A stretch of DNA of 64,000 nt, taken from Chamaelirium japonicum. Taxonomy: Eukaryota; Streptophyta; Magnoliopsida; Liliales; Melanthiaceae. A program made the translations under genes and the position numbers. Location of the stretch: contig OX393551.1 of NCBI GenBank assembly GCA_947650365.1, positions 61,745,173-61,809,172 on the forward strand, given 5' to 3'. Of the stretch, positions 21,338 through 51,971 are shown piece by piece (position 1 is the stretch's first letter; each line of letters opens with the position of its first letter). The notes below the pieces were generated by a model, which searched no databases, was not told where the DNA came from, and saw only the letters and a list, made by a program, of their open reading frames with translations.

Positions 21338-21400
21338 TACGAATGAATTAGAATGGATCATACGAATGAATTAGAATTGATCGTGCGAATGAATTAGAAT
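20950..21400. repeat. Segmental duplication SD5, copy 1
   Basis: Matches 37,663-38,113 at an offset of 16,713, checked at CGGACA (21,047/37,760) and at the minus-to-plus junction GAATGTACGAATG (21,333/38,046). Shared rare features are the CGGACAATC monomer, an ATTAGCACG monomer, TTCAGTCATACG and CTACATCATTC. Confidence 0.85.
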
Positions 21401-23197: not shown

Positions 23198-23746
23198 CGT
23201 ATGATCCATTCTAATTCATTCCTACGATCTATTCTAATTTATTCGTTCGAATGTATCCATTCGTACGATCCATTCTTACTCATTCGTACAATCCATTCTA
23301 ATTCATTCACATGAATGTATCCATTCTAATTCATTCGTACGATCCATTCTAATTCATTAGCACGATCCATTCTAATTCATTCGTACGATCCATTCTATTT
23401 CATTCGTACGATCCATTCTTACTCATTCGTACAATCCATTCTAATTCATTCGCATGAATGTATCCATTCTAATTCATTCGTATGATCCATTCTAATTCAT
23501 TCGTACGATTCACTCTAATTCATTCGTACGATCCATTCTAATTCATTCGTACGATCCGTTCTACTTCATTCGCACGAATGTATCCATTCTAATTCATTCG
23601 TACAATCCATTCTAATTCATTCGCACGATCAATTCTAATTCATTCGTATGATCCATTCTAATTCATTCCTACATTCTATTCTAATTCATTCGTTCGAATG
23701 TATCCATTCTAATTCATTCATACGATTCATTCTAATTCGTTCGTAC
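22912..23746. repeat. Segmental duplication SD1, copy 2
   Basis: Direct copy of bases 1-835 with no net length change. The inversion junction near 23,198 and the HOR-C pair are reproduced, so block structure was copied as a unit. The left edge may lie further left, because copy 1 is cut by the window start. Confidence 0.88.
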
Positions 23747-23812
23747 GATCCATTCTAATTCATTCGTACGATCCATTCTACTTCATTCGCACGAATGTAT
23801 CCATTCTAATTC
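23198..23812 (-). repeat. Orientation block 20
   Basis: HOR-C pair then HOR-A, as in block 2. Ends at the SD4 junction TCATGGATAC. Confidence 0.87.
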
Positions 23813-24157
23813 ATGGATACATTCGAACGAATAAATTAGAATAGATCGTAGGAATGAATTAGAATGGATACATTCGTGCGAATGAAGTAGAATGGATCGT
23901 ACGAATGAATTAGAATGGATCGTACGAATAAATTAGAATGGATACATTCGAACGAATGAATTAGAATAGATCGTAGGAATGAATTAGAATGGATCATACG
24001 AATGAATTAGAATTGATCGCGCGAATGAAAAAGAATGGATTGTACGAATGAATTAGAATGGATACATTCGTGCGAATGAAGTAGAATGGATCGTAAGAAT
24101 GAAGTAGAATGGATCGTACGAATGAATTAGAATGGATCGTACAAATGAATTAGAATC
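23813..24157 (+). repeat. Orientation block 21
   Basis: 345-bp plus insert, the first of five near-identical ones, flanked by TCATGGATAC and AATCGATCC. Confidence 0.88.
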
Positions 24158-25142
24158 GATCCATTCTACTTCATTAGCATGATCCATTCTAATTCATTCG
24201 TACGATCCATTCTAATTCATTCATACGATCCATTGTAATTCATTCATATGATCCATTCTAATTCATTCGCATGAATGTATCAATTCTAATTCATTCGTAC
24301 GATCCATTCTAATTCATTCGTACGATCCATTCTACTTCATTCGCACGAATGTATCCATTCTAATTCATTCGTACAATCCATTCTAATTCATTCGCACGAT
24401 CAATTCTAATTCATTCGTATGATCCATTCTAATTCATTCCTACGATCTATTCTAATTCATTCGTTCGAATGTTTCCATTCTAATTCATTCGTACGATTCA
24501 TTCTAATTCATTCGTACGATCCATTCTGATTCATTCGTACGATCCATTCTAATTCATTCGCACGAATGTATCCATTCTAATTCATTCGTACAATCCATTC
24601 TAAATCATTCGCACGATCATTTCTAATTCATTCGTATGATCCATTCTAATTCATTCCTACGATCTATTCTAATCCATTCTAATTCATTCGTACGATTCAT
24701 TCTAATTCATTCGTATGATCCTTTATAATTCATTCGTACGATCCATTCTACTTCATTCGTATGATCCATTCTAATTCATTCGTACAATCAATTCTAATTC
24801 ATTCGTTCGAATGTATCCATTCTAATTCATTCGTATGATTCATTCTAATTCATTCGTACGATCCATTCTAATTCATTCGTACGATCCATTCTACTTCATT
24901 CTCACGAATGTATCCATTCTAATTCATTCGTACAATCCATTCTAATTCATTCGCACGATCAATTCTAATTCATTCGTATGATCCATTCTAATTCATTCCT
25001 ACATTCTATTCTAATTCATTCGTTCGAATGTATCCATTCTAATTCATTCATACGATTCATTCTAATTCGTTCGTACGATCCATTCTAATTCATTCGTACG
25101 ATCCATTCTACTTCATTCGCACGAATGTATCCATTCTAATTC
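24158..25142 (-). repeat. Orientation block 22
   Basis: Begins with the TTAGCATG and CCATTGTAATTC monomers, then HOR-A. Carries the 18-bp and 143-bp deletions relative to block 26. Confidence 0.88.
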
Positions 25143-25487
25143 ATGGATACATTCGAACGAATAAATTAGAATAGATCGTAGGAATGAATTAGAATGGATA
25201 CATTCGTGCGAATGAAGTAGAATGGATCGTACGAATGAATAAGAATGGATCGTACGAATAAATTAGAATGGATACATTCGAACGAATGAATTAGAATAGA
25301 TCGTAGGAATGAATTAGAATGGATCATACGAATTAATTAGAATTGATCGTGCGAATGAAAAAGAATGGATTGTACGAATGAATTAGAATGGATACATTCG
25401 TGCGAATGAAGTAGAATGGATCGTAAGAATGAAGTAGAATGGATCGTACGAATGAATTAGAATGGATCGTACAAATGAAATAGAATC
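25143..25487 (+). repeat. Orientation block 23
   Basis: Second 345-bp plus insert ('b' type, AATTAATTAG). Confidence 0.88.
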
Positions 25488-28400
25488 GATCCATTCTACT
25501 TCATTAGCATGATCCATTCTAATTCATTCGTACGATCCATTCTAATTCATTCATACGATCCATTGTAATTCATTCATATGATCCATTCTAATTCATTCGC
25601 ACGAATGTATCAATTCTAATTCAATCGTACGATCCATTCTAATTCATTCGTACGATCCATTCTACTTCATTCGCACGAATGTATCCATTATAATTCATTC
25701 GTACAATCCATTCTAATTCATTCGCACGATCAATTCTAATTCATTCGTATGATCCATTCTAATTCATTCCTACGATCTATTCTAATTCATTCGTTCGAAT
25801 GTTTCCATTCTAATTCATTCGTACGATTCATTCTAATTCATTCGTACGATCCATTCTGATTCATTCGTACGATCCATTCTAATTCATTCGCACGAATGTA
25901 TCCATTCTAATTCATTCGTACAATCCATTCTAATTAATTCGCACGATCATTTCTAATTCATTCGTATGATCCATTCTAATTCATTCCTACGATCTATTCT
26001 AATTCATTTGTTCGAATGTATCCATTCTAATTCATTCGTACGATTCATTCTAATTCATTCGTATGATCCATTATAATTCATTCGTACGATCCATTCTACT
26101 TCATTCGTATGATCCATTCTAATTCATTCGTACGATCCATTCTAATTCATTCGTACGATCCATTCTACTTCATTCGCACGAATGTATCCATTCTAATTCA
26201 TTCGTACAATCCATTCTAATTCATTCGCACGATCAATTCTAATTCATTCGTATGATGCATTCTAATTCATTCCTACGATCTATTCTAATTCATTCGTTCG
26301 AATGTATCCATTCTAATTCATTCGTATGATTCATTCTAATTCATTCGTATGATCAATTCTAATTCATTCGTACGATCCATTCTACTTCATTCTCACGAAT
26401 GTATCCATTCTAATTCATTCGTACAATCCATTCTAATTCATTCGTACAATCCATTCTAATTCATTCGCACGATCAATTCTAATTCATTCGTATGATCCAT
26501 TCTAATTCATTCCTACGATCTATTCTAATTCATTCGTTCGAATGTATCCATTCTAATTCATTCGTACGATCCATTCTAATTCATTCGTACGATCCATTCT
26601 ACTTCATTCGCACGAATGTATCCATTCTAATTCATTCGTACAATCCATTCTAATTCATTTGCACGATCAATTCTAATTCATTCGTATGATCCATTCTAAT
26701 TCATTCCTACGATCTATTCTAATTCATTCGTTCGAATGTATCCATTCTAATTCATTCGTACGATCCATTCTAATTCATTCGTACGATCCATTCTACTTCA
26801 TTCGCACGAATGTATCCATTCTAATTTATTCGTACAATCCATTCTAATTCATTCGCACGATCAATTCTAATTCATTCGTATGATCCATTCTAATTCATTC
26901 CTACGATCTATTCTAATTCATTCGTTCGAATGTATCCATTCTAATTTATTCGTACGATTCATTCTAATTCATTCGTACGATCCATTCTAATTCATTCGTA
27001 CGATCCATTCTACTTCATTCGCACGAATGTATCCATTCTAATTCATTCGTGAAATCCATTCTAATTCATTCGCACGATCATTTCTAATTCATTCGTATGA
27101 TCCATTCTAATTCATTCCTACGATCTATTCTAATTCATTCGTTCAAATGTATCCATTCTAATTCATTCGTACGATTCATTCTAATTCATTCGTACGATCC
27201 ATTCTAATTCATTCGTCCAATCCATTCTAATTCATTCGTACGATCCATTCTAATTCATTCTAATTCATTCCTACGATCTATTCTAATTTATTCGTTCGAA
27301 TGTATCCATTCTAATTCATTCGTATGATTCATTCTAATTCATTCGTACGATCCATTCTAATTCATTCGTACGATCAATTCTACTTCATTCGCACGAATGT
27401 ATCCATTCTAATTCATTCGTACAATCCATTCTAATTCATTCGCACGATCAATTCTAATTCATTCGTATGATCCATTCTAATTCATTCCTACGATCTATTC
27501 TAATTCATTCGTTCGAATGTTTCCATTCTAATTAATTCGTACGATTCATTCTAATTCATTCGTACGTCGTACAATCCATTCTAATTTATTCGCACGATCA
27601 ATTCTAATTCATTCGTATGATCCATTCTAATTCATTCCTACGATCTATTTTAATTCATTCGTTCGAATGTATCCATTCTAATTCATTCGTACAATCCATT
27701 CTAATTCATTCGAACGATCAATTCTAATTCATTCGTATGATCCATTCTAATTCATTCCTACGATCTATTCTAATTCATTCGTTCGAATGTATCCATTCTA
27801 ATTCATTCGTACGATCCATTCTAATTCATTCGTACGATCCATTCTACTTCATTCGCACGAATGTATCCATTCTAATTCATTCGTACAATCCATTCTAATT
27901 CATTCGCACGATTAATTCTAATTCATTCGTATGATCCATTCTAATTCATTTCTACGATCTATTCTAATTCATTCGTTCGAATGTATCCATTCTAATTCAT
28001 TCGTACGATTCATTCTAATTCATTCGTACGATCCATTCTAATTCATTCGTACGATCCATTCTACTTCATTCGCACAAATCTATCCATTCTAATTCATTCG
28101 TACAATCCATTCTAATTCATTCACACGATCAATTCTAATTCATTCGTATGATCCATTCTAATTCATTCCTACGATCTATTCTAATTCATTCGTTCGAATG
28201 TATCCATTCTAATTCATTCGTACGATTCATTCTAATTCATTCGTACGATCCATTCTAATTTATTCGTACGATCCATTCTACTTCATTCGCACGAATGTAT
28301 CCATTCTAATTCATTCGTACAATCCATTCTAATTCATTCGCACGATCAATTCTAATTTATTCGTATGATCCATTCTAATTCATTCCTACGATCTATTCTA

Positions 28401-28963
28401 ATTCATTCGTTCGAATGTATCCATTCCAATTCATTCGTACGATTCATTCTAATTCATTCGTACGATCCATTCTAATTCATTCGTACGATCCATTCTAGTT
28501 CATTCGCACGAATGTATCCATTATAATTCATTCGTACAATCCATTCTAATTCATTAGCACGATCAATTCTAATTCATTCGTATGATCCATTCTAATTCAT
28601 TCCTACGATCTATTCTAATTCATTCGTTCGAATGTATCCATTCTAATTCATTCGTATGATTCATTCTAATTCATTCGTACGATCCATTCTAATTCATTCG
28701 TACGATCCATTCTACTTCATTCTCACGAATGTATCCATTCTAATTCATTCGTACAATCCATTCTAATTCATTCGCACGATCAATTCTAATTCATTCGTAT
28801 GATCCATTCTAATTCATTCCTACATTCTATTCTAATTCATTCGTTCGAATGTATCCATTCTAATTCATTCATACGATTCATTCTAATTCGTTCGTACGAT
28901 CCATTCTAATTCATTCGTACGATCCATTCTACTTCATTCGCACGAATGTATCCATTCTAATTC
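25488..28963 (-). repeat. Orientation block 24
   Basis: 3.5 kb of minus HOR-A. The region from about 27.84 to 28.5 kb contains three HORs absent from SD4 copy 2. Confidence 0.9.
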
Positions 28964-29308
28964 ATGGATACATTCGAACGAATAAATTAGAATAGATCGT
29001 AGGAATGAATTAGAATGGATACATTCGTGCGAATGAAGTAGAATGGATCGTACGAATGAATTAGAATGGATCGTACGAATAAATTAGAATGGATACATTC
29101 GAACGAATGAATTAGAATAGATCGTAGGAATGAATTAGAATGGATCATACGAATGAATTAGAATTGATCGCGCGAATGAAAAAGAATGGATTGTACGAAT
29201 GAATTAGAATGGATACATTCGTGCGAATGAAGTAGAATGGATCGTAAGAATGAAGTAGAATGGATCGTACGAATGAATTAGAATGGATCGTACAAATGAA
29301 TTAGAATC
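28964..29308 (+). repeat. Orientation block 25
   Basis: Third 345-bp plus insert ('a' type). Confidence 0.88.
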
Positions 29309-30454
29309 GATCCATTCTACTTCATTAGCATGATCCATTCTAATTCATTCGTATGATCCATTCTAATTCATTCATACGATCCATTGTAATTCATTCATAT
29401 GATCCATTCTAATTCATTCGCATGAATGTATCAATTCTAATTCATTCGTACGATCCATTCTAATTCATTCGTACGATCCATTCTACTTCATTCGCACGAA
29501 TGTATCCATTCTAATTCATTCGTACAATCCATTCTAATTCATTCGCACGATCAATTCTAATTCATTCGTATGATCCATTCTAATTCATTCCTACGATCTA
29601 TTCTAATTCATTCGTTCGAATGTTTCCATTCTAATTCATTCGTACGATTCATTCTAATTCATTCGTACGATCCATTCTGATTCATTCGTACGATCCATTC
29701 TAATTCATTCGCATGAATGTATCCATTCTAATTCATTCGTACAATCCATTCTAAATCATTCGCACGATCATTTCTAATTCATTCGTATGATCCATTCTAA
29801 TTCATTCCTACGATCTATTCTAATTCATTCGTTCGAATGTATCCATTCTAATTCATTTGTACGATTCATTCTAATTCATTCGTATGATCCTTTATAATTC
29901 ATTCGTACGATCCATTCTACTTCATTCGTATGATCCATTCTAATTCATTCGTACGATCCATTCTAATTCATTCGTACGATCCATTCTACTTCATTCGCAC
30001 GAATGTATCCATTCTAATTCATTCGTACAATCCATTCTAATTCATTCGCACGATCAATTCTAATTCATTCGTATGATCCATTCTAATTCATTCCTACGAT
30101 CTATTCTAATTCATTCGTTCGAATGTATCCATTCTAATTCATTCGTATGATTCATTCTAATTCATTCGTACGATCCATTCTAATTCATTCGTACGATCCA
30201 TTCTACTTCATTCTCACGAATGTATCCATTCTAATTCATTCGTACAATCCATTCTAATTCATTCGCACGATCAATTCTAATTCATTCGTATGATCCATTC
30301 TAATTCATTCCTACATTCTATTCTAATTCATTCGTTCGAATGTATCCATTCTAATTCATTCATACGATTCATTCTAATTCGTTCGTACGATCCATTCTAA
30401 TTCATTCGTACGATCCATTCTACTTCATTCGCACGAATGTATCCATTCTAATTC
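29309..30454 (-). repeat. Orientation block 26
   Basis: Full-length counterpart of block 22. Confidence 0.88.
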
Positions 30455-30799
30455 ATGGATACATTCGAACGAATAAATTAGAATAGATCGTAGGAATGAA
30501 TTAGAATGGATACATTCGTGCGAATGAAGTAGAATGGATCGTACGAATGAATTAGAATGGATCGTACGAATAAATTAGAATGGATACATTCGAACGAATG
30601 AATTAGAATAGATCGTAGGAATGAATTAGAATGGATCATACGAATTAATTAGAATTGATCGTGCGAATGAAAAAGAATGGATTGTACGAATGAATTAGAA
30701 TGGATACATTCGTGCGAATGAAGTAGAATGGATCGTAAGAATGAAGTAGAATGGATCGTACGAATGAATTAGAATGGATCGTACAAATGAATTAGAATC
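30455..30799 (+). repeat. Orientation block 27
   Basis: Fourth 345-bp plus insert ('b' type). Confidence 0.88.
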
Positions 30800-33600
30800 G
30801 ATCCATTCTACTTCATTAGCATGATCCATTCTAATTCATTCGTACGATCCATTCTAATTCATTCATACGATCCATTGTAATTCATTCATATGATCCATTC
30901 TAATTCATTCGCACGAATGTATCAATTCTAATTCAATCGTACGATCCATTCTAATTCATTCGTACGATCCATTCTACTTCATTCGCACGAATGTATCCAT
31001 TATAATTCATTCGTACAATCCATTCTAATTCATTCGCACGATCAATTCTAATTCATTCGTATGATCCATTCTAATTCATTCCTACGATCTATTCTAATTC
31101 ATTCGTTCGAATGTTTCCATTCTAATTCATTCGTACGATTCATTCTAATTCATTCGTACGATCCATTCTGATTCATTCGTACGATCCATTCTAATTCATT
31201 CGCACGAATGTATCCATTCTAATTCATTCGTACAATCCATTCTAATTAATTCGCACGATCATTTCTAATTCATTCGTATGATCCATTCTAATTCATTCCT
31301 ACGATCTATTCTAATTCATTTGTTCGAATGTATCCATTCTAATTCATTCGTACGATTCATTCTAATTCATTCGTATGATCCATTATAATTCATTTGTACG
31401 ATCCATTCTACTTCATTCGTATGATCCATTTAATTCATTCGTACGATCCATTCTAATTCATTCGTACGATCCATTCTACTTCATTCGCACGAATGTATCC
31501 ATTCTAATTCATTCGTACAATCCATTCTAATTCATTCGCACGATCAATTCTAATTCATTCGTATGATGCATTCTAATTCATTCCTACGATCTATTCTAAT
31601 TCATTCGTTCGAATGTATCCATTCTAATTCATTCGTATGATTCATTCTAATTCATTCGTATGATCAATTCTAATTCATTCGTACGATCCATTCTACTTCA
31701 TTCTCACGAATGTATCCATTCTAATTCATTCGTACAATCCATTCTAATTCATTCGCACGATCAATTCTAATTCATTCGTGTGATCCATTCTAATTCATTC
31801 CTACGATCTATTCTAATTCATTCGTTCGAATGTATCCATTCTAATTCATTCGTACGGTCCATTCTAATTCATTCGTACGATCCATTCTACTTCATTCGCA
31901 CGAATGTATCCATTCTAATTCATTCGTACAATCCATTCTAATTCATTTGCACGATCAATTCTAATTCATTCGTATGATCCATTCTAATTCATTCCTACGA
32001 TCTATTCTAATTCATTCGTTCGAATGTATCCATTCTAATTCATTCGTACGATCCATTCTAATTCATTCGTACGATCCATTCTACTTCATTCGCACGAATG
32101 TATCCATTCTAATTCATTCGTACAATCCATTCTAATTCATTCGCACGATCAATTCTAATTCATTCGTATGATCCATTCTAATTCATTCCTACGATCTATT
32201 CTAATTCATTCGTTCGAATGTATCCATTCTAATTTATTCGTACGATTCATTCTAATTCATTCGTACGATCCATTCTAATTCATTCGTACGATCCATTCTA
32301 CTTCATTCGCACGAATGTATCCATTCTAATTCATTTGTGAAATCCATTCTAATTCATTCGCACGATCATTTCTAATTCATTCGTATGATCCATTCTAATT
32401 CATTCCTACGATCTATTCTAATTCATTCGTTCAAATGTATCCATTCTAATTCATTCGTACGATTCATTCTAATTCATTCGTACGATCCATTCTAATTCAT
32501 TCGTCCAATCCATTCTAATTCATTCGTACGATCCATTCTAATTCATTCTAATTCATTCCTACGATCTATTCTAATTTATTCGTTCGAATGTATCCATTCT
32601 AATTCATTCGTATGATTCATTCTAATTCATTCGTACGATCCATTCTAATTCATTCGTACGATCAATTCTACTTCATTCGCACGAATGTATCCATTCTAAT
32701 TCATTCGTACAATCCATTCTAATTCATTCGCACGATCAATTCTAATTCATTCGTATGATCCATTCTAATTTATTCCTACGATCTATTCTAATTCATTCGT
32801 TCGAATGTTTCCATTCTAATTAATTCGTACGATTCATTCTAATTCATTCGTACGTCGTACAATCCATTCTAATTTATTCGCACGATCAATTCTAATTCAT
32901 TCGTATGATCCATTCTAATTCATTCCTACGATCTATTTTAATTCATTCGTTCGAATGTATCCATTCTAATTCATTCGTACAATCCATTCTAATTCATTCG
33001 AACGATCAATTCTAATTCATTCGTATGATCCATTCTAATTCATTCCTACGATCTATTCTAATTCATTCGTTCGAATGTATCCATTCTAATTCATTCGTAC
33101 GATCCATTCTAATTCATTCGTACGATCCATTCTACTTCATTCGCACGAATGTATCCATTCTAATTCATTCGTACAATCCATTCTAATTCATTCGCACGAT
33201 CAATTCTAATTCATTCGTATGATCCATTCTAATTCATTCCTACGATCTATTCTAATTCATTCGTTCGAATGTATCCATTCTAATTCATTCGTATGATTCG
33301 TTCTAATTCATTCGTACGATCCATTCTAATTCATTCGTACGATCCATTCTACTTCATTCTCACGAATGTATCCATTCTAATTCATTCGTACAATCCATTC
33401 TAATTCATTCGCACGATCAATTCTAATTCATTCGTATGATCCATTCTAATTCATTCCTACATTCTATTCTAATTCATTCGTTCGAATGTATCCATTCTAA
33501 TTCATTCATACGATTCATTCTAATTCGTTCGTACGATCCATTCTAATTCATTCGTACGATCCATTCTACTTCATTCGCACGAATGTATCCATTCTAATTC
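30800..33600 (-). repeat. Orientation block 28
   Basis: Counterpart of block 24, three HORs shorter. One base is missing at about 31,430 (CCATTTAATTC). Confidence 0.9.
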
Positions 33601-34660
33601 ATGGATACATTCGAACGAATAAATTAGAATAGATCGTAGGAATGAATTAGAATGGATACATTCGTGCGAATGAAGTAGAATGGATCGTACGAATGAATTA
33701 GAATGGATCATACGAATAAATTAGAATGGATACATTCGAACGAATGAATTAGAATAGATCGTAGGAATGAATTAGAATGGATCATACGAATGAATTAGAA
33801 TTGATCGCGCGAATGAAAAAGAATGGATTGTACGAATGAATTAGAATGGATACATTCGTGCGAATGAAGTAGAATGGATCGTAAGAATGAAGTAGAATGG
33901 ATCGTACGAATGAATTAGAATGGATCGTACAAATGAATTAGAATCGATCCATTCTACTTCATTAGCATGATCCATTCTAATTCATTCGTACGATCCATTC
34001 TAATTCATTCATACGATCCATTGTAATTCATTCATATGATCCATTCTAATTCATTCGCATGAATGTATCAATTCTAATTCATTCGTACGATCCATTCTAA
34101 TTCATTCGTACGATCCATTCTACTTCATTCGCACGAATGTATCCATTCTAATTCATTCGTACAATCCATTCTAATTCATTCGCACGATCAATTCTAATTC
34201 ATTCGTATGATCCATTCTAATTCATTCCTACGATCTATTCTAATTCATTCGTTCGAATGTTTCCATTCTAATTCATTCGTACGATTCATTCTAATTCATT
34301 CGTACGATCCATTCTGATTCATTCGTACGATCCATTCTAATTCATTCGCACGAATGTATCCATTCTAATTCATTCGTACAATCCATTCTAAATCATTCGC
34401 ACGATCATTTCTAATTCATTCGTATGATCCATTCTAATTCATTCCTACGATCTATTCTAATTCATTCGTTCGAATGTATCCATTCTAATTCATTCGTACG
34501 ATTCATTCTAATTCATTCGTATGATCCTTTATAATTCATTCGTACGATCCATTCTACTTCATTCGTATGATCCATTCTAATTCATTCGTACGATCCATTC
34601 TAATTCATTCGTACGATCCATTCTACTTCATTCGCACGAATATATCCATTCTAATTCATT
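33599..34660. repeat. Segmental duplication SD4, copy 3 (partial)
   Basis: Third start of the unit, of 'a' type (GATCGCGCG at about 33.80 kb, GAATGAAAAAG after it). It follows copy 2 for about 1.06 kb and is then cut by a minus-to-plus switch at about 34,665. Confidence 0.88.
33601..33945 (+). repeat. Orientation block 29
   Basis: Fifth 345-bp plus insert ('a' type). Confidence 0.88.
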
Positions 34661-34664
34661 CGCA
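33946..34664 (-). repeat. Orientation block 30
   Basis: Truncated counterpart of blocks 22 and 26. Ends at CATTCGCACGAATG. Confidence 0.87.
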
Positions 34665-35177
34665 CGAATGAAGTAGAATGGATCGTACGAATGAATTAGA
34701 ATGGATTGTACGAATGAATTAGAATGGATACATTCGAACGAATGAATTAGAATAGATCGTAGGAATGAATTAGAATGGATCATACGAATGAATTAGAATT
34801 GATCGTGCGAATGAATTAGAATGGATTGTATGAATGAATTAGAATGGATACATTCGTGCGAATGAAGTAGAATAGATCGTACGAATGAATTAGAATGGAT
34901 CGTACGAATGAATCAGAATGGATCGTACGAATGAATTAGAATGAATCGTACGAATGAATTAGAATGGAAACATTCTAACGAATCAATTAGAATAGATCGA
35001 TTAGAATGGATCATACGAATAAATTAGAATGGATCATACGAATAAATTAGAATTGATCGTGCGAATGAATTAGAATGGATTGTACGAATGAATTAGAATG
35101 CAATGGATCGTGTGAATGAATTAGAATGAATCGTACGAATGAATTAGAATGGATCATGCTAATGAAGTAGAATGGAT
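34665..35177 (+). repeat. Orientation block 31
   Basis: HOR-A/B, including an AATCAG monomer and a shortened joint at about 35.0 kb. Ends at GGATCGATTC. Confidence 0.87.
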
Positions 35178-38049: not shown

Positions 38050-38113
38050 GTACGAATGAATTAGAATGGATCATACGAATGAATTAGAATTGATCGTGCG
38101 AATGAATTAGAAT
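37663..38113. repeat. Segmental duplication SD5, copy 2
   Basis: Second copy of the 20.95-21.40 kb segment, including its orientation switch. Copies differ by scattered substitutions only, such as GTATCC against GTAACC after the CACGAAT. Confidence 0.85.
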
Positions 38114-41100
38114 GGATTGTACGAATGAATTAGAATGGATCATACGAATGAATTAGAATGAATCATACGAATGAATTAGAATGGATACATTCGAACGAAT
38201 GAATTAGAATAGATCGTAGGAATGAATTAGAATGGATCGTACGAATGAATTAGAATGGATCGTACGTATGAATCAGAATTGATCGTACGAATGAATTAGA
38301 ATGAATCGTATGAATGAATTAGAATGGAAACATTCGAACGAATGAATTAGAATAGATCGTAGGAATGAATTAGAATGGATCACACGAATGAATTAGAATT
38401 GATCGTGCGAATGAATTAGAATGGATTGTACGAATGAATTAGAATGGATACATTCGTGCAAATGAAGTAGAATGGATCGTACGAATGAATTAGAATGGAT
38501 CGTACGAATGAATTAGTATGGATACATTCGAACGAATGAATTAGAATAGATCGTAGGAATGAATTATAATTGATCATAGGAATGAATTAGAATGGATCAT
38601 ATAAATGAATTAGAATGGATCGTGTGAATGAATTAGAATTGATCGTATGACTGAATTAGAATGGATACATTCGTGCGAATGAAGTAGAATGGATCGTACG
38701 AATGAATTAGAATGGATCATACGAATGAATTAGAATGAATCGTACGAATGAATTAGAATGGATACATTCGAACGAATAAATTAGAATAGATCGTAGGAAT
38801 GAATTAGAATGGATCATACGAATGAATTAGAATTGATCGTGCGAATGAATTAGAATGGATTGTACGAATGAATTAGAATGGATATGCGAATGAATTAGAA
38901 TGGATTGTACGAATGAATTAGAATGGATACATTCGTGCGAATGAAGTAGAATGGATCGAACGAATGAATTAGAATGGATCGTACGAATGAATTAGAATGG
39001 ATACATTCGAACGAATGAATTAGAATAGATCGTAGGAATGAATTACAATGGATCATACGAATGAATTAGAATTGATCGTGCGAATGAATTAGAATGGATT
39101 GTACGAATGAATTAGAATGGATACATTCGTGCGAATGAAGTAGAATGGATCGTACGAATGAATCAGAATGGATCGTACGAATGAATTAGAATGAATCGTA
39201 CGAATGAATTAGAATGGAAACATTCGAACGAATGAATTAGAATAGATCGTAGGAATGAATTAGAATGGATCACACGAATGAATTAAAATTGATCGTGCGA
39301 ATGAATTAGAATGGATTGTACGAATGAATTAGAATGGATACATTCGTGCGAATGAAGTAGAATGGATCGTACGAATGAATTAGAATGGATCGTACGAATG
39401 AATTAGAATGAATCGTACGAATGAATTAGAATGGATATATTCGAACGAATGAATTAGAATAGATCGTAGGAATGAATTAGAATGAATTAGAATAGATCGT
39501 ACGAATGAATTAGAATGGATTGTACGAATGAATTAGAATGGATCGTAGGAATGAATTAGAATGAATCGTACGAATGAATTAGAATGGAAACATTCGAACG
39601 AATGAATTAGAATAGATCGTAGGAATGAATTAGAATGGATCATACGAATGAATTAGAATTGATCGTGCGAATGAATTAGAATGGATTGTACGAATGAATT
39701 AGAATGGATACATTCGTGCGAATGAAGTAGAATGGATCGTACGAATGAATTAAAATGGATCGTACGAATGAATTAGAATGAATCGTACGAATGAATTAGA
39801 ATGGATACATTCGAACGAATGAATTAGAATAGATCGTAGGAATGAATTAGAATAGATCATACAAATGAATTAGAATTGATCGTGCGAATGAATTAGAATG
39901 GATTGCACGAATGAATTAGAATGGATCGTACGAATGAATTAGAATGAATCGTACGAATGAATTAGAATGGATACATTCGAACGAATGAATTAGAATAGAT
40001 GGTAGGAATGAATTAGAATGGATCATACGAATGAATTAGAATTGATCGTGCGAATGAATTAGAATGGATTGCACGAATGAATTAGAATGGATACATTCGT
40101 GCGAATGAAGTAGAATGGATCGTACGAATGAATTAGAATGGATCGTACGAATGAATTAGATTGAATCGTATGAATGAATTAGAATGGATACATTCGAACG
40201 AATGAATTAGAATAGATCGTAGTAATGAATTAGAATGGATCATACGAATGAATTAGAATTGATCGTGTGAATGAATTAGAATGGATTGTACGAATGAATT
40301 AGAATAGATACATTCGTGCGAATGATGTAGAATGGATCGTACGAATGAATCAGAATGGATCGTACGAATGAATTAGAATGAATCGTACGAATGAATTAGA
40401 ATGGATACATTCGAACGAATGAATTAGAATAGATCGTAGGAATGAATTAGAATGGATCATACGAATGAATTAGAATTGATCGTGCGAATGAATTATAATG
40501 GATTGTACGAATGAATTAGAATGGATACATTCGTGCGAATGAAGTAGAATGGATCGTACGAATGAATTAGAATGGATCGTACGAATGAATCAGAATGGAT
40601 CATACGAATGAATTAGAATGGATACATTCGAACGAATGAATTAGAATAGATCGTAGGAAAGAATTAGAATGGATCATAGGAATGAATTAGAATTGATCGT
40701 GCGAATGAATTAGAATGGATTGTACGAATGAATTAGAATGGATACATACGTGCGAATGAAGTAGAATGGATCGTACGAATGAATTAGAATGGATCGTACG
40801 AATGAATTAGAATGAATCGTACGAATGAATTAGAATGGATACATTCGAACGAATAAATTAGAATAGATCGTAGGAATGAATTAGAATGGATCATACGAAT
40901 GAATTAGAATTGATCGTGCAAATGAAGTAGAATGGATTGTACGAATGAATTAGAATGGATACATTCGTGCGAATGAAGTAGAATGGATCGTACGAATGAA
41001 TTAGAATGGATCGTACGAATGAATTAGAATGAATCGTACGAATGAATTAGAATGGATACATTCGAACGAATGAATTAGAATAGATCGTAGGAATGAATTA

Positions 41101-41765
41101 GAATGGATCATACGAATGAATTAGAATTGATCATGCGAATGAATTAGAATGGATCGTACAAATGAGTAAGAATGGATCATACAAATGAAATAGAATGGAT
41201 CGTACGAATGAATTAGAATGGATCGTATGAATGAATTAGAATGGATACATTCGTGCGAATGATGTAGAATGGATCGTACGAATGAAATAGAATGGATCGT
41301 ACGAATGAATGCGAATGGATCGTACGAATGAATTAGAATGGATACATTCATGCGAATGGATCGTACGAATGAATTAGAATGGATCATACGAATGAATTAG
41401 AATTGATCGTGCGAATGAATTAGAATGGATTGTACGAATGAATTAGAATGGATATATTCGTGAGAATAAAGTAGAATGGATCGTACGAATGAATTAGAAT
41501 GGATCGTACGAATGAATTAGAATGAATCGTACGAATGAATTAGAATGGATACATTCGAACGAATGAATTGGAATAGATCGTAGGAATGAATTAGAATGGA
41601 TCATACGAATGAATTAGAATTGATCGTGCGAATTAATTAGAATGGATTGTACGAATGAATTAGAATGGATACATTCGTGCGAATGAAGTAGAATGGATCG
41701 TACGAATGAATTAGAATGGATCGTATGAATGAATTAGAATGGATCGTACGAATGAATTAGAATGG
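38050..41765 (+). repeat. Orientation block 35
   Basis: 3.7 kb of HOR-A/B. The part at 41.13-41.37 kb is irregular, with GAGTAAG and GAAATAG (HOR-C-like) monomers. Confidence 0.9.
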
Positions 41766-42303
41766 AATGTATCCATTCTAATTCATTCGTGCAATCCATT
41801 CTAATTCATTCGCACGATCCATTCTACTTCATTCGCACGAATGTATCCATTCTAATTCATTCGTACAATCCATTCTAATTCATTCGCACGATCAATTCTA
41901 ATTCATTCGTATGATCCATTCTAATTCATTCCTACGATCTATTCTAATTCATTCAATTCATTCGTACGATCCATTCTAATTCATTCGTACGATCCATTCT
42001 ACTTCATTCGCACGAATGTATCCATTCTAATTCATTCGTACGATCTATTTTAATTCATTCGTACGATCAATTCTAATTCATTCGTATGATCCATTCTAAT
42101 TCATTCCTACGATCCATTCTAATTCATTCGTACGATCCATTCTAATTCATTCGTACGATCCATTCTAATTCATTCGTATGATCCATTCTAATTCATTCGT
42201 ATGATCCATTCTAATTTATTCGTTCGAATGTATCCATTCTAATTCATTCGTACGATTCATTCTAATTCATTTGTACGATCCATTCTAATTCATTCGTATG
42301 ATC
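41766..42303 (-). repeat. Orientation block 36
   Basis: Minus HOR-A then plain monomers up to island B. Mostly the outer left arm of the palindrome. Confidence 0.87.
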
Positions 42304-42376
42304 ATTATGGCAATTTGATCATCCTCATAAAAAATTAACAAAATCTGAAACTTCTAAGGGCGCCGATTGAATCAAA
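42304..42376 (+). other. Island B: left half of island A
   Basis: Same as A from ATTATGGCAATTTGATC to GATTGAATCAAA, with CGCC in place of CACC, then joined to satellite in plus orientation (TGAATTAG). It lies exactly at a minus-to-plus orientation switch and in the left arm of the large palindrome. Confidence 0.88.
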
Positions 42377-43049
42377 TGAATTAGAATGGATCGGGCGAAT
42401 GAATTAGAATGGATCGTACGAATGAATCAGAATGGATCATACGAATGAATTAGAATGGATCACAGGAATAGATTAGAATGGATACATTCAAACGAATAAA
42501 TTAGAATAGATCGTAGGAATGAATTAGAATGGATCATACGAATGAATTAGAATTGATCGTACGAATGAAGTAGAATAGATCATACGAATGAATTAGAATT
42601 GATCGTGCGAATGAATTAGAATGGATTGTACGAATGAATTAGAATGGATACTTTCGTGCGAATGAAGTAGAATGGATCGTACGAATGAATCAGAATGGAT
42701 CGTACGAATGAATTAGAATGAATCGTACGAATGAATTAGAATGGATACATTCGAACGAATGAATTAGAATAGATCGTAGGAATGAATTAGAATGGATCAT
42801 ACGAATGAATTAGAATTGATCGTGCGAATGAATTAGAATGGATTGCACGAATGAATTAGAATGGATACATTCGAGCGAATGAAGTTGAATGGATCGTACG
42901 AATGAATTAGAATGGATCGTACGAATGAATTAGAATGAATCGTACGAATGAATTACAATGGATACATTCGAACGAATGAATTAGAATAGATCGTAGGAAT
43001 GAATTAGAATGGATCATACGAATGAATTAGAATGGTTACATTCGAACGT
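42377..43049 (+). repeat. Orientation block 37
   Basis: Inner left arm of the palindrome. Ends at CATTCGAACGTACAATC. Confidence 0.87.
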
Positions 43050-43621
43050 ACAATCAATTCTAATTTATTCGCACGATCAATTCTAATTCATTCGTACGAT
43101 CCATTCTAGCCATTCTAATTCATTCGTACGATCCATTCTAATTCATTCGTACGATCCATTCTGATTCATTCGTACGATCCATTCTGATTCATTCGTACGA
43201 TCCATTCTACTTCATTCGCACGAATGTATCCATTCTAATTCATTCGTGCAATCCATTCAAATTCATTCGCACTATCCAGATCTATTCTAATTCATTCGCA
43301 CGAATGTATCCATTCTAATTCATTCGCACGATCAATTCTAATTCATTCGTATAATCCATTCTAATTCATTCCTACGATCTATTCTAATTCATTCGTTCGA
43401 ATGTATCCATTCTAATTCATTCGTGCAATCCATTCTAATTCATTCGCACGATCATTTCTAATTCATTCGTATGATCCATTCTAATTCATTCCTACGATCT
43501 ATTCTAATTCATTCGTACAATCCATTCTAATTCATTCGCACGATCAATTCTAATTCATTCGTATGATCCATTCTAATTCATTCCTACGATCTATTCTAAT
43601 TCATTCGTTCGAATGTATCCA
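43050..43621 (-). repeat. Orientation block 38
   Basis: Palindrome spacer, irregular. A CACTATCCAGATC joint near 43.27 kb matches 20.78 kb. Ends at GTATCCATGCGAATG. Confidence 0.85.
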
Positions 43622-43848
43622 TGCGAATGAATTAGAATGGATTGAATTAGAATGGATTGTACGAATGAATTAGAATGGATCATACAAATGAATTAGAATG
43701 GATTGTACGAATGAATTAGAATGGATCATACGAATGAATTAGAATTAATCGTACGAATGAATTAGAATGGATTGTACGAATGAATTAGAATGGATCGTAC
43801 GAATGAATTAGAATTGATCGTGCGAATGAATTAGAATGGATTGTACGT
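43622..43848 (+). repeat. Orientation block 39
   Basis: Palindrome spacer, ten monomers. Ends at TTGTACGTTCGAATG. Confidence 0.85.
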
Positions 43849-44591
43849 TCGAATGTATCCATTCTAATTCATTCGTATGATCCATTCTAATTCATTCGTA
43901 CGATCTATTCTAATTCATTCGTTCGAATGTATCCATTCTAATTCATTCGTACGATTCATTATAATTCATTCCTACGATCTATTCTAATTCATTCGTTCGA
44001 ATGTATCCATTCTAATTCATTCGTACGATTCATTCTAATTCATTCGTACGATCCATTCTAATTCATTCGTACGATCCATTCTACTTCATTCGCTCGAATG
44101 TATCCATTCTAATTCATTCGTGCAATCCATTCTAATTCATTCGCACGATCAATTCTAATTCATTCGTATGATCCATTCTAATTCATTCCTACGATCTATT
44201 CTAATTCATTCGTTCGAATGTATCCATTCTAATTCATTCGTACGATTCATTCTAATTCATTCGTACGATCCATTCTGATTCATTCGTACGATCCATTCTA
44301 CTTCATTCGCACGAATGTATCCATTCTAATTCATTCGTACAATCCATTCTAATTCATTTGCACGATCAATTCTAATTCATTCGTATGATCTATTCTACTT
44401 CATTCGTATGATCAATTCTAATTCATTCGTATGATCCATTCTAATTCATTCCTACAATCTATTCTAATTTATTCGTTCGAATGTATCCATTCTAATCTAT
44501 TCCTGTGATCCATTCTAATTCATTCGTACGATCCATTCTGATTCATTCGTACGATCCATTCTAATTCATTCGCACGATCCATTCTAATTCA
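43849..44591 (-). repeat. Orientation block 40
   Basis: Inner right arm of the palindrome, ending at island C. Confidence 0.87.
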
Positions 44592-44663
44592 TTTGATTCA
44601 ATCGGCGCCCTTAGAAGTTTCAGATTTTGTTAAATTTTATGAGGATGATCAAATTGCCATAAT
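44592..44663 (-). other. Island C: inverted partner of island B
   Basis: Reverse complement of B with the same truncation point and the same CGCC variant. One length difference lies in the A-rich run. It sits at a minus-to-plus switch and in the right arm of the palindrome. Confidence 0.88.
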
Positions 44664-45127
44664 GATCATACGAATGAATTAGAATGGATCGTACGAATGA
44701 ATTAGAATGAATCGTACGAATGAAATAGAATGGATACATTCGAACGAATAAATTAGAATGGATCGTACGAATGAATTAGAATGGATCATACGAATGAATT
44801 AGAATGGATCGTACGAATGAATTAGAATGGATCGTACGAATGAATTAGAATGGATCATACGAATGAATTAGAATTGATCGTACGAATGAATTAGAATGGA
44901 TCGTACGAATGAATTAGAATGGATACATTCGTGCAAATGAAGTAGAATGGATCGTACGAATGAATTAGAATGGTTCGTACGAATGAATTGAATGAAATAG
45001 AATAGATCGTAGGAATGAATTAGAATGGGTCATACGAATCAAGTAGAATGGATCGTACGAATGAATTAGAATGGATCGTACGAATGAATTAGAATGGATT
45101 GTACGAATGAATTAGAATGAATACATT
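44664..45127 (+). repeat. Orientation block 41
   Basis: Outer right arm to about 45,035, then plain monomers. Ends at ATACATTCCATTC. Confidence 0.87.
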
Positions 45128-45547
45128 CCATTCTAATTCATTCGTACGATCCATTCTACTTCATTCGCATGAATGTATCCATTCTAATTCATTCGTACAA
45201 TCCATTCTAATTCATTCGCACGATCAATTCTAATTCATTCGTATGATCCATTCTAATTTATTCCTACGATCTATTCTAATTCATTCGTTCGAATGTATCC
45301 ATTCTAATTCATTCGTACGATTCATTCTAATTCATTCGTACGATCCATTCTAATACATTCGTACGATCCATTCTACTTCATTCGCACGAATGTATCCATT
45401 CTAATTCATTCGTACAATCCATTCTAATTCATTCACACGATCAATTCTAATTCATTCGTATGATCCATTCTAATTCATTCCTACGATCTATTCTAATTCA
45501 TTCGTTCGAATGTATCCATTCTAATTCATTCGTACAATCTATTCTAA
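45128..45547 (-). repeat. Orientation block 42
   Basis: About two minus HOR-A units. Ends at TTCTAATCGTACG. Confidence 0.87.
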
Positions 45548-47581
45548 TCGTACGAATGAATTAGAGTGGAAACATTCGAACGAATGAATTAGAATAGATC
45601 GTAGGAATGAATTAGAATGGATCATACGAATGAATTAGAATTGATCGTGCGAATGAATTAGAATGGATTGTACGAATGAATTAGAATGGATACATTCATG
45701 CAAATGAAGTATAATGGATCGTACGAATGAATTAGAATGGATCGTACGAATGAATTAGAGTAAATCGTACGAATGAATTAGAATGGATACATTCGAACGA
45801 ATAAATTAGAATGGATCATACGAATGAATTAGAATTGATCGTGCGAATGAATTAGAATGGATTGTACGAATGAATTAGAATGGATACATTCGTGCTAATG
45901 AAGTAGAATGAATCAGAATGGATCGTACGAATGAATTAGAATGAATTAGAATGGATACATTCGAACGAATGAATTAGAATAGATCGTAGGAATGAATTAG
46001 AATTGATCATGCGAATGAATTAGAATGGATTGTACGACTGAATTAGAATGGATCATACGAATGAATTAGAATGGATCGTGCGAATGAATTAGAATAGATT
46101 GTACGAATGAATTAGAATGGATACATTCATGTGAATGAATTAGAATGGATCGGACTAATGAATTAGAATGGATCGTACGAATGAATTAGAATGGATTGTA
46201 CGAATGAATTAGAATGGATATATTCGAACGAATGAATTAGAATAGATCGTAGGAATGAATTAGAATGGATCGTACAAATGAATTAGAATTGATCGTGCGA
46301 ATGAATTAGAATGGATTGTACGAATGAATTAGAATGGATACATTCGTGCGAATGAAGTAGAATAGACCGTAGGAATGAATTAGAATGGATCATACGAATG
46401 AATTAGAATTGATCGTGCGAATGAATTAGAATGGATTGTACGAATGAATTAGAATGGATATATTCGTGCGAATGAAGTAGAATGGATCGTACGAATGAAT
46501 TAGAATGGATCGTACGAATGAATTAGAATGGATACATTCGAACAAATGAATTACAATAGATCGTAGGAATGAATTAGAATGGATCATACGAATGAATTAG
46601 AATTGATCGTGCGAATGAATTAGAATGGATTGTACGAATGAATTAGAATGGATACATTCGTGCAAATGAAGTAGAATGGATCGTACGAATGAATTAGAAT
46701 GGATCGTACGAATGAATCAGAATGGATCGTACGAATGAATTAGAATGAATCGTACGAATGAATTAGAATGGAAACATTCGAACGAATGAATTAGAATAGA
46801 TCGTAGGAATGAATTAGAATGGATCATACGAATGAATTAGAATTGATCGTGCGAATGAATTAGAATGGATTGCACGAATGAATTAGAATGGATACATTCA
46901 AGCGAATGAAGTAGAATGGATCATACGAATGAATTAGAATGGATCGTACGAATGAATTAGAATGAATCGTACGAATGAATTAGAATGGATACATTCGAAC
47001 GAATAAATTAGAATAGATCGTAGGAATGAATTAGAATGGACCATACGAATGAATTAGAATTGATCGTGCGAATGAATTAGAATGGATTGTACGAATGAAT
47101 TAGAATGGATACATTCATGCGAATGAAGTAGAATGGATCGTACGAATGAATTAGAATGGATCGTACGAATGAATTAGAAATGATCGTGCAAATGAATTAG
47201 AATGGATTGGACGAAAGAATTAGAATGGATACATTCGTGCGAATGAAGTAGAATGGATCGTACGAATGAATTAGAATGGATCGTACGAATGAATTAGAAT
47301 GAATCGTACGAATGAATTAGAATGGATACATTCGAACGAATTAATTAGAATAGATCATAGGAATGAATTAGAATGGATCATACGAATGAATTAGAATTGA
47401 TCGTGCGAATGAATTAGAATAGATTGTACGAATGAATTAGAATGGATACATTCGTGCGAATGAAGAATGAATCGTACGAATGAATTAGAATGGATACATT
47501 CGAACGAATAAATTAGAATGGATCGTACGGATGAATTAGAATGGATACATTCGTGCGAATGAATTAGAATGAATCGTTAGA
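45548..47581 (+). repeat. Orientation block 43
   Basis: HOR-A plus the HOR-B exemplar, with internal shortened units at 45.90-46.20 kb. Ends at AATCGTTAGAATG. Confidence 0.88.
46554..46793 (+). repeat. HOR-B exemplar: 240-bp ten-monomer variant
   Basis: Between the plain monomer and the AATGAATCGTAC monomer there is one additional 23-mer whose constant half reads GAATGAATCAG, and the following 28-mer has GGAAACATTCG instead of GGATACATTCG. The marker-to-marker distance is 240 bp (46,554 to 46,794), and the next unit returns to 217 bp. The AATCAG monomer is also seen near 2.66, 4.17, 5.06, 34.91, 38.27, 55.87 and 63.0 kb, usually with the GAAACATTCG partner. Confidence 0.9.
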
Positions 47582-47710: not shown

Positions 47711-49463
47711 CGATACATTCGAACGACTGAATTAGAATAGATCGTAGGAATGAATTAGAATGGATCATACGAATGAATTAGAATTGATCGTGTGAATGAA
47801 TAAGAATGGATTGTACGAATGAATTAGAATGGATCGTACGAATGAATTAGAATGAATCGTACGAATGAATTAGAATGGAAACATTCGAACGAATGAATTA
47901 GAATAGACCATAGGAATGAATTAGATTGGATCATATGAATGAATTAGAATTGATCGTGTGAATGAATTAGAATGGATTGTACGAATGAATTACAATGGAT
48001 CATACGAATGAAGTAGAATGGATAATACGAATGAATTAGAATTGATCGAGCGAATGAATTAGAATGGATTGTACGAATGAATTAGAATGGATACATTCGT
48101 GCGAATGAAGTAGAATGGATCGTACGAATGAATTAGAATGGATCGTACGAATGAATTAGAATTGATCGTGCGAATGAATTAGAATGGATTGTACGAATGA
48201 ATTAGAATGGATACATTCGTGCGAATGAAGTAGAATGGATCGTACGAATGAATTAGAATGGATCGTACGAATGAATTAGAATGAATCGTACGAATGAATT
48301 AGAATGGATATATTCGAACGAATGAATTAGAATAGATCGTAGGAATGAATTAGAATGGATCATACGAATGAATTAGAATTGATCGTGCGAATGAATTAGA
48401 ATGGATTGTACGAATGAATTAGAATGGATACATTCGTGCGAATAAAGTAGAATGGATCGTACAAATTAGAATAGATCGTAGGAATGAATTAGAATGGATC
48501 GTACGAATGAATTTGAATGGATCGTACAAATGAATTAGAAAGGTTACATTTGTGAGAATGAATTAGAATTGATCGTACGAATGAATTAAATGGATCGTAC
48601 GAATGGATTAGAATGAATCATACGAATGAATTAGAATGGATCGTACGAATGAATTAGAATGGATCGTGCAAATGAATTAGAATCGATCATACGAATGAAT
48701 TAGAATGGATCGTACGAACGAATGAATTAGAATTGATCGTGCGAATGAATTAGAATGGATTGTACGAATGAATTAGAATGGATACATTCGTGCGAATGAA
48801 GTAGAATGGATCGTACGAATGAATTAGAATGGATCGTACGAATGAATTAGAATGAATCGTACGAATGAATTAGAATGGATCGTACAAATGAATTAGAATG
48901 AATCGTAGGAATGAATTAGAATGGATCATACGAATGAATTAGAATTGATCGTGCGAATGAATCCGAATGGATCGTACGAATGAATTAAAATGGATATATT
49001 CGAGCGAATGAATTAGAATGGATACATTTGTGCGAATGAATTAGAATGGATCGTACGAATGAATTAGAATGGATCAGCAAATTCGGAAACTTATAAGGGC
49101 GTCAAATGTGTTATTCAAATTAACGGTTCAAATAGACGGTTCGTGCGAATGAAGTAGAAAGGATCGTACGAATGAATTAGAATGGATCGTACGAATGAAT
49201 TAGAATGGATACATTCGAACGAATGAATTAGAATAGATCGTAAGAATGAATTAGAATGGATCATACGAATGAATTAGAATTGATCGTGCGAATGAATTAG
49301 AATGGATTGTACGAATGAATTAGAATGGATACATTCGTGCGAATGAAGTAGAATGGATCGTACGAATGAATTAGAATAGATCGTAGGAATGAATTAGAAT
49401 GGATTAGAATAGATCGTAGGAATGAATTAGAATGAATCATACGAATGAATTAGAATGGATCGT
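47711..49463 (+). repeat. Orientation block 45 (contains island D)
   Basis: HOR-A and many degenerate monomers. The rare AAAGGTTACATTTGTGAG 28-mer is at 48.54 kb. Ends at GGATCGTACAATC. Confidence 0.87.
49076..49141 (-). other. Island D: right half of island A, inverted
   Basis: Reverse complement of A from AGCAAATT(C/T)GG through GACGGTTC, then straight into GTGCGAATG satellite. B/C and D are complementary truncations of A and together cover most of it. D sits inside a plus block with no orientation switch. Confidence 0.85.
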
Positions 49464-51202: not shown

Positions 51203-51471
51203 TCCGAATTTTGAATTTAAATAACTGGGGAGGGAGGTCAAGAGAGCTTAAAATTATGCTAGGAGACCGGGAGGTAGGCTCTAGGGCTGGTCGGGCTCGG
51301 TCCCGAGCCCTGAACCGGGCTCGGTTGGAATCCGGGTGCGATTCATCCATCAACCGGGCTGAAAAGAATAATAAGTCGTAACTATCAAACCGGAAGTCGG
51401 AATAGGGCCCGAGAGGATTCGTTGGAAAGGTCTCGTCAACGCGAACGCGTTAGCGCTTGGTACATAATTTT
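51203..51471. mobile_element. Non-satellite sequence, possible hAT-like transposon end
   Basis: Unique 269 bp joined to minus satellite after CTTCATTCTC and running into the gap. From 51,282 it reads TAGGGCTGGTCGGGCTCGG, with an inverted pair GGGCTCGG (51,293-51,300) and CCGAGCCC (51,303-51,310), and GGGCTCGG again at 51,317. A TAGGG start and iterated GC-rich subterminal motifs resemble plant hAT-type ends, but the other end and the target-site duplication would lie in the gap. It could equally be unrelated flanking DNA or a misjoin. AACGCGTT lies at 51,444-51,451. No convincing ORF. Confidence 0.35.
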
Positions 51472-51971
51472 NNNNNNNNNNNNNNNNNNNNNNNNNNNNN
51501 NNNNNNNNNNNNNNNNNNNNNNNNNNNNNNNNNNNNNNNNNNNNNNNNNNNNNNNNNNNNNNNNNNNNNNNNNNNNNNNNNNNNNNNNNNNNNNNNNNNN
51601 NNNNNNNNNNNNNNNNNNNNNNNNNNNNNNNNNNNNNNNNNNNNNNNNNNNNNNNNNNNNNNNNNNNNNNNNNNNNNNNNNNNNNNNNNNNNNNNNNNNN
51701 NNNNNNNNNNNNNNNNNNNNNNNNNNNNNNNNNNNNNNNNNNNNNNNNNNNNNNNNNNNNNNNNNNNNNNNNNNNNNNNNNNNNNNNNNNNNNNNNNNNN
51801 NNNNNNNNNNNNNNNNNNNNNNNNNNNNNNNNNNNNNNNNNNNNNNNNNNNNNNNNNNNNNNNNNNNNNNNNNNNNNNNNNNNNNNNNNNNNNNNNNNNN
51901 NNNNNNNNNNNNNNNNNNNNNNNNNNNNNNNNNNNNNNNNNNNNNNNNNNNNNNNNNNNNNNNNNNNNNNN
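51472..51971. other. Assembly gap, 500 N
   Basis: Exactly 500 ambiguous bases, most likely a placeholder for a gap of unknown length. Satellite lies on its right, non-satellite DNA on its left. Confidence 0.98.

Follow-up and report, generated by a model that had tools for sequence, protein, structure and literature searches.

The closest described system is the Chio1/Chio2 satellite of the holocentromeres of Chionographis japonica, in which monomers of 23 and 28 bp, with a length difference of 5 bp, form a higher-order repeat cluster (Kuo et al. 2023, PMC10264360). It accounts for approx. 16% of the genome and runs in mixed forward and reverse arrays (PMC10264360). The published assembly was built from HiFi reads with hifiasm, scaffolded with SALSA2 at MAPQ10 and curated manually; its 12 scaffolds comprise 1090.73 Mb (PMC10264360). 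How satellite units spread along a holocentric chromosome was left open. Ectopic (non-allelic) conversion, under which repeats are expected to pass from unit to unit along a chromosome, has been proposed (PMC10264360, PMC12722358), as has circular DNA (PMC10264360), and hairpin-linked breaks together with ectopic conversion were suggested for the Chio repeat (PMC12722358). The passages on the repeat in PMC10264360 cover monomer-scale dyads and mixed orientation; kilobase palindromes, arm histories and tags limited to certain units were not encountered in them.

Kilobase-scale inverted satellite subarrays, or macro-dyads, are known from Tribolium madens, where the relevant sections of PMC13081366 describe thousands of conserved, recurring inversion sites in the likely (peri)centromeres of all chromosomes. 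For satellites in general, break-induced replication has been proposed, with replication restart and template switching as sources of duplication; microhomology-mediated events and a maize cent10 inversion are reported in the same paper (Talbert and Henikoff 2022, PMC8997354). Its passages on the model concern direct higher-order repeats, and the inverted step considered below is an extension made in our analysis.

The window analysed here is a stretch of 64 kb on chromosome C3 (C3:61745173-61809172) of the Chamaelirium japonicum assembly, and a k-mer scan showed that nearly all of it is satellite. The monomer is a 23-bp repeat with a 28-bp variant (period 23; motif spacings of 23, n=1347, and 28, n=240), and the higher-order period is 217 bases with an autocorrelation of 0.75; arithmetically, 217 equals 7x23 plus 2x28. 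We assign the repeat to the Chio1/Chio2 type because it matches the description in PMC10264360 and carries the 9-mer TTCGTACGA (332 occurrences in the window, 402 of its reverse complement), which is common to Chio and Chama repeats (PMC12722358). The match was judged by monomer lengths, the 9-mer and mixed orientation, and by these features the satellite fits the holocentromere repeat of Chionographis japonica and probably belongs to that type. The alternation of forward and reverse arrays is pronounced, with 56 strand flips in the window. They comprise 41 distinct junction sequences, two of which were seen 7 times each and three twice. Kilobase-scale inverted subarrays are present as in Tribolium madens, whereas a predominance of few conserved inversion types was not seen in the window.

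Several further features of the window deserve mention. A larger palindrome lies at 10.6-35 kb (10602-21777 versus 22221-34999); within bounds set by the analyst, and with numerous gaps, its arms are 97.0% identical over 10716 aligned bases, and each of the 21 250-base bins with starts from 14084 to 19084 reaches 98.4-100%. A gap of 500 N occupies 51472-51971. Neither an ARAGORN search of the whole window for tRNA-type genes nor an Rfam search of 41300-45600 for known RNAs gave a match. The genome searched (1,518,659,071 bases in 3253 contigs) contains rbcL, which points to a plant. Exact satellite 39-mers number 1,077,632 in it, and the generic 39-mer was found on C1 among the matches listed. 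An extrapolation of the satellite content from 39-mer density gave an impossible 1086 Mb and was dropped; it is wrong because exact 39-mers are rare in the window (63).

A palindrome with mirrored private markers

Within this array lies a palindrome of approx. 3 kb, which our analysis confirmed as real. With strict gap costs its left arm spans 41905..43040 on the plus strand and its right arm 43924..45039 on the minus strand, at 97.9% identity over 1112 bases (score 1024). With lenient costs the arms extend to 41313-43300 and 43622-45544 (96.9% over 1839 bases). The arm length of about 1.1 kb given in the first-pass annotation is therefore that of the strict alignment and grows to 1839 aligned bases when gaps are cheap. 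Inverted diagonals were built from exact 40-mers between 41.0 and 46.2 kb. The largest has a coordinate sum of 86968 and covers 642 bases, and a second (sum 86847, 340 bases) extends the arms outward; the sums 86967 (151 bases) and 86944 (104 bases, one 23-mer away) also lie on the palindrome, in agreement with the earlier description of sums shifting by one base and then by one 23-mer. The remaining inverted diagonals, of 225 bases or less, are satellite cross-matches.

The arms are marked by features that recur in mirror order. The outer flips at 41757..41781 and 45112..45136 mirror each other, as do the flips at 42282 and 44581 and the inner flips at 43027..43063 and 43831..43867 (mirrored pairs 41757/45112, 42282/44581 and 43027/43831). 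Each arm contains one truncated island, at 42300..42377 (plus) and 44591..44667 (minus), a fragment of a dispersed palindromic element whose 3′ side joins opposite-strand satellite; both fragments end at the same truncation point. A rare 24-mer at 42458..42481 (plus) and 44487..44510 (minus) lies 82 bases inside the island junction in either arm. Mirror order of two islands had been claimed before; the mirroring holds, whereas the two islands are one fragment of one element per arm. Similarly, the 883 bases between the strict arms (43041..43923) had been read as a spacer with two more flips. Three flips lie in it or at its edge: those at 43027 and 43831 are mirrored and belong to the arms, and the junction scan leaves only the flip at 43593-43638 unpaired in the centre.

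Arm identity by itself is not special in this window. In a control with low costs for large gaps, a plus block at 39.0-41.76 kb aligned with a minus block at 25.6-28.9 kb over 2740 bases with 96.1% identity. Because such high opposite-strand identity is common here, the case for the palindrome rests on the mirrored private markers. The same alignment speaks for a chance product of mixed orientation in a tandem array, an explanation to which we give practically no weight. None of 400 random inverted pairs from the same window scored as high as the strict core (maximum 950, median 426), the 151 strongly opposite-oriented pairs among them had a median of 603 and a maximum of 950, and the best score of the left arm against 190 other tiles was 703. 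Moreover, mirroring extends to the truncated island, the rare 24-mer and three flips. The proposal that one particular segment was genuinely duplicated in inverted orientation is thus supported, and the expected excess of arm identity over unrelated blocks was found with strict gaps and, only narrowly, with lenient ones.

Could the mirror image have arisen in the library or the assembly? Foldback artefacts have identical arms and arise independently wherever they occur. Since long satellite arrays are hard to assemble and the window itself contains a 500-N gap, a hairpin-type (foldback) HiFi read or a mis-join is conceivable. We nevertheless regard such an origin as very improbable. Between 41905-43300 and 43622-45039 there are 1308 matches and 36 mismatches, with gaps of 23, 1, 74, 9, 5 and 14 bases, so the arms are told apart by 36 substitutions and several indels, two of them of 23 and 74 bases. 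Neither identical arms nor independent formation at each place was found: the lengths specific for each side return in copies on separate contigs, and N is absent from all 17 satellite loci that were counted.

Amplification as a unit and the history of the arms

The first-pass annotation had implied an event particular to this place. This was not supported, for the 3.6-kb unit 41700-45299 is found collinear in other loci: L009 (96.8%), L010 (96.1%), L011 (97.0%) and L016 (96.4%), which lie on C3 and two separate contigs and are free of N. Further copies are present in L017 (3279 bases at 97.7%, cut by the fetched end), L013 (2936 bases at 96.3%) and, at 88-92% over 2.8-3.4 kb, L014, L015 and L018. 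Some copies lack the island or part of an arm. Judged by this collinearity, amplification of the whole palindrome is shown. The amplified segment must be larger than the palindrome because collinearity with distant copies continues past the arms, at 38053-44973 with L017 (92.6%), 39668-45099 with L011 (95.8%) and 43312-46870 with L009 (93.2%); altogether, 38053..46870 is collinear with one or another distant copy.

Genome-wide, the truncated-island junction occurs at 27 places (up to 2 mismatches), with 7 plus/minus pairs spaced 1.96-2.23 kb apart, and the rare marker at 40 places (up to 1 mismatch), with 9 such pairs spaced 1.77-2.10 kb apart. The nine marker pairs and an additional island pair (C124:904581/906795) define ten palindromes, two of which (C176:103185 and C124:222953) are known as marker pairs only. 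Five lie at 30-31 Mb of C3, one is that of the window at 61.8 Mb, two are on C124 and one each on C139 and C176. The 61-62 Mb block of C3 therefore has a single palindrome by this count; a partner arm devoid of the marker, like that of L013, would be missed by the pairing. In contrast to the macro-dyads of Tribolium, we are dealing with a single cassette whose ten copies, recognised by paired markers, lie on C3 or small contigs, and most of the flips around it are unique.

Palindromes on Y chromosomes are kept alike by gene conversion, and their arms are more alike within a locus than between loci. That arm-to-arm conversion maintains the present arms in this way seems very unlikely. In its favour is the low left-right distance within L011 (1.59%) and L017 (1.34%), where limited conversion is possible. 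Otherwise the arms follow their side and not their locus. A tree of 21 arms clustered the sides, with the right arm of L015 falling outside. In a second tree of 19 arms, from which the left arm of L014 and the right arm of L015 were dropped on account of deletions (when kept, right arms need two changes), right arms formed one group (94/95), left arms grouped weakly (67/74) and four single arms lacking the marker stood outside (100/100). Grouping of arms by locus was disfavoured weakly for the window (p 0.031) and more strongly for L009 (0.00015), L010 (0.00002), L016 (0.0013) and the four arms of L011 and L017 (0.0002); the five tests were run without correction, and the rows had been named after a first tree was seen. 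Variants private to a locus and common to both its arms number 0 or 1 at six loci, against 1 to 90 private to one arm. Since the near-identical L011 and L017 mask each other, L017 was left out for the L011 count.

Raw distances separate the sides only weakly, with 1.63% among left arms, 2.06% among right arms, 2.17% for left versus right within a locus and 2.35% between loci. Only 2 alignment columns split the sides almost cleanly. Because 23-base indels blur the alignment and diagnostic columns come down to one or two, marker distances were used instead. The inner-flip distance is 660-662 in 7/8 left arms and 736 in 7/9 right arms. The outer flip is 188 bases from the short monomer in all eight left arms; in right arms this distance is 137 in five of nine and 114 in two, the other two not being scorable. 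We put more weight on these lengths than on the trees because recombination among copies breaks the tree model and because the grouping tests are post hoc and uncorrected. Taken together, a palindrome that formed once and was then amplified whole is the most likely history and is well supported.

The arms look older than the palindrome copies. All but one of the 27 truncated junctions were read, the exception being C176:103089; among these 26, the rare marker was present at 20 and absent at 6. An island flanked by satellite of the same strand (window 1633), truncated islands lacking the rare marker, unpaired left-type arms and full palindromes coexist. Left-type arms without a partner marker (L018, L031, L033 and L034) may, though, be decayed palindromes, not ancestors.

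Origin of the island

To judge from its sequence, the island is a piece of a dispersed, palindromic, foldback-like element. An internal pattern of this element occurs at 844 places (up to 2 mismatches), the 100 listed all being on C1-C5, and five copies from C1, C2, C4 and C5 as well as a C8 copy are inverted repeats of approx. 380-730 bases, some of them cut by fetched ends. The copy within satellite at window 1633 begins at the centre of the element, and its joins with the satellite are ATGATC and TGAT, whereas the palindrome island breaks off at AAATG onto opposite-strand satellite. Microhomology at the joins thus comprises ATGATC and TGAT, and AATG if the source was like L012; where L012 has AAATG, however, AAACG is found in the window's satellite island, which would shorten the third microhomology. 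A plain transposon insertion was considered for the island and set aside, as the joins, though of few bases, resemble microhomology joins of an internal piece. The capture boundary occurs at 84 places. Because all of these lie on C3 or on seven other contigs, a single capture followed by copying is suggested.

Tags shared by two blocks of C3

Four tags were sought genome-wide with complete listings. C3 carries 16 of the 27 truncated junctions, 41 of the 84 island boundaries, 38 of the 91 places of an independent flip-junction tag and 17 of the 40 rare markers; the other 11, 43, 53 and 23 are on other contigs. On C3 every tag falls at 30.07-31.48 or 61.38-62.10 Mb. The remainder are on C124, C128, C139, C166, C167, C176 and C240 with two to four tags each, and none of the four was found on any other chromosome in these listings. 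Presence on all chromosomes, as in Tribolium, is hence not seen for this cassette. The seven contigs, four of which (C124, C139, C167 and C176) measure 0.74-0.93 Mb each, are taken as unplaced, and some may represent other haplotypes of the C3 blocks. By contrast, the inner-flip pattern occurs at 537 places (up to 2 mismatches), with C1, C4, C5 and other contigs represented among the 100 listed. It was rejected as a private tag, its relatives one or two substitutions away being found on these chromosomes and contigs.

Samples of 120 bases were satellite at 29.7-32.5 Mb (9/9) and 60.9-61.6 Mb (4/4) of C3, and satellite was absent from the samples at 41.5, 60.6 and 62.2-63.2 Mb (5/5 in the last). 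The tags fill parts of two arrays, since satellite samples extend beyond the tagged blocks. In the arm tree, unmarked single arms pair across the two blocks (L023 with L025b, 81/81; L024 with L025a, 92/98), whereas their outer sides pair within blocks (99.1% versus 97.9-98.2%). This confinement of tags would fit an exchange between two centromere units of one chromosome. Copies of the same array do not count as independent observations, so that exchange is supported by roughly one shared lineage, perhaps more. Our tentative reading, held at slightly less than even confidence, is that two units of C3 approx. 30 Mb apart share a private lineage of rearrangements comprising the element piece, its junction, the 24-mer, the palindrome and the flip.

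The placement on C3 depends on scaffolding, and Hi-C places pure satellite poorly. A serious rival to exchange between units is therefore that the blocks at 30-31 and 61-62 Mb are one unit split by mis-scaffolding, with no movement between units. We consider this possible though rather unlikely. The weakness of Hi-C on satellite would favour it, as would SALSA2 at MAPQ10 with hand curation if the assembly is the published one; between two and four of the four tags recur on each of the same seven other contigs, and the tagged blocks occupy only part of each sampled array. Conversely, ordinary sequence separates the blocks, with non-satellite samples at 41.5 and 60.6 Mb and dispersed repeats in between, and satellite continues beyond one tagged block (29.7-32.5 Mb, 9/9) and to the left of the other (60.9-61.3 Mb, 3/3). 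If the exchange between two units is true, the tags provide direct sequence evidence that kilobase blocks are exchanged among the units of one chromosome and less with other chromosomes, as expected from units meeting in a shared chromocentre. Ectopic conversion in Chionographis (PMC12722358, PMC10264360) is a model in the sections that treat it, whereas the tags are its trace in the sequence, if the scaffolding is right.

Overall, the palindrome is probably an amplified rearrangement cassette within a megabase array of the Chio1/Chio2 centromeric type, with a history of four steps. A piece of a foldback-like element would have been captured into a minus-strand satellite run through microhomologies of 4-6 bases. 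A later break inside this piece would then have been joined to plus-strand satellite, giving a truncated island that marks an orientation flip. Subsequently, the segment around the flip may have been copied in inverted orientation beside the original, yielding left and right arms. Finally, the palindrome and several kb of flank would have been amplified and moved within and between the blocks assigned to C3. Template switching or break-induced replication may underlie the first three steps; the fourth may be due to ectopic exchange, with two units of one chromosome as partners. An array of dyad-bearing monomers would break and restart often; a restart on the opposite strand would produce a flip, and a restart that copies back along the segment an inverted copy. 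We infer the enzymology from the products, which also suggest the order of events.

A selected macro-dyad, whose hairpin or cruciform aids centromere identity as proposed for Tribolium madens, appears very improbable to us. The cassette does recur with the same centre, in ten copies by markers, and both the short dyads of the published Chio monomer (PMC10264360) and the macro-dyads of Tribolium (PMC13081366), as far as the relevant sections describe them, would be compatible with it. Yet the rare marker is confined to 40 places against 1,077,632 exact satellite 39-mers, the window, with 41 different junctions at its 56 flips, shows no preferred inversion site, and some copies dispense with the island or part of an arm. 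No sign of a function was seen, and we think that the palindrome is a by-product of array recombination that needs no function of its own. Its use lies in marking the movement of centromere repeats; it does not represent a novel class of element.

Mixed orientation of the Chio repeat and kilobase-scale satellite palindromes in Tribolium are already known; the unit-limited tags are what is worth following. In the main text of the literature searched, we found no report of this palindrome or of such tags in Chionographis. Unambiguous tags are hard to come by in satellites with short monomers. Here, copies can be followed from block to block and from contig to contig by three sufficiently distinctive tags (truncated-island junction, rare 24-mer and flip tag), and an order of events can be read from the side-specific arms. 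Provided that the placements are right, the spread of a centromeric satellite becomes directly testable in long reads and in relatives.

A second, larger palindrome

Besides the 3.1-kb satellite palindrome at 41905-45039, the window holds a second imperfect palindrome that exceeds it in size, with arms at 10602-21777 and 22221-34999 and a centre near 22.2 kb. An inverted alignment of the arms, broken by numerous gaps, pairs 10716 bases at 97.0% identity, and all 21 of the 250-base bins starting at 14084-19084 matched at 98.4-100%.

Possible further recurring inverted units

One junction at which the satellite changes strand, TTAGAATCGATCC...AGCATG, occurs seven times in the window (15114, 18912, 24150, 29301, 30792, 33938 and 35144), besides relatives. 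Genome-wide, 91 places carry it with at most one mismatch, confined to C3, the chromosome-scale sequence holding the window, and seven other contigs. Several form minus/plus pairs spaced about 2.1-2.3 kb (e.g. C3:30919014/30921256 and C176:505908/508127), which look like a second recurring palindrome. Joins between satellite and island, a fragment of a dispersed palindromic element, are likewise paired in minus/plus order about 7.8-7.9 kb apart at C3:30972414/30980350 and C3:31115714/31123535, perhaps representing another recurrent inverted unit.

Dispersed elements and probable plastid contigs

The 3′ part of the islands' element lies at 49080-49129, truncated on its other side and adjoining plus-strand satellite. 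A dispersed repeat ends at 51203-51471, where it is interrupted by an assembly gap of 500 N (51472-51971). Some of its copies lie 5.8-7.7 kb apart in the same orientation, an LTR-like arrangement. Elsewhere in the assembly, rbcL gave 131 matches, all at 455.1-455.2 bits, on contigs numbered C265 and above (e.g. C306, C340 and C367); these probably represent plastid DNA remaining as many contigs.

Apparent satellite dialect of the array

The exact 39-mer made of two perfect monomers is found 1,077,632 times across the genome, whereas the window contains just 63. Thus, the window's array seems to be a divergent dialect of the satellite repeat.
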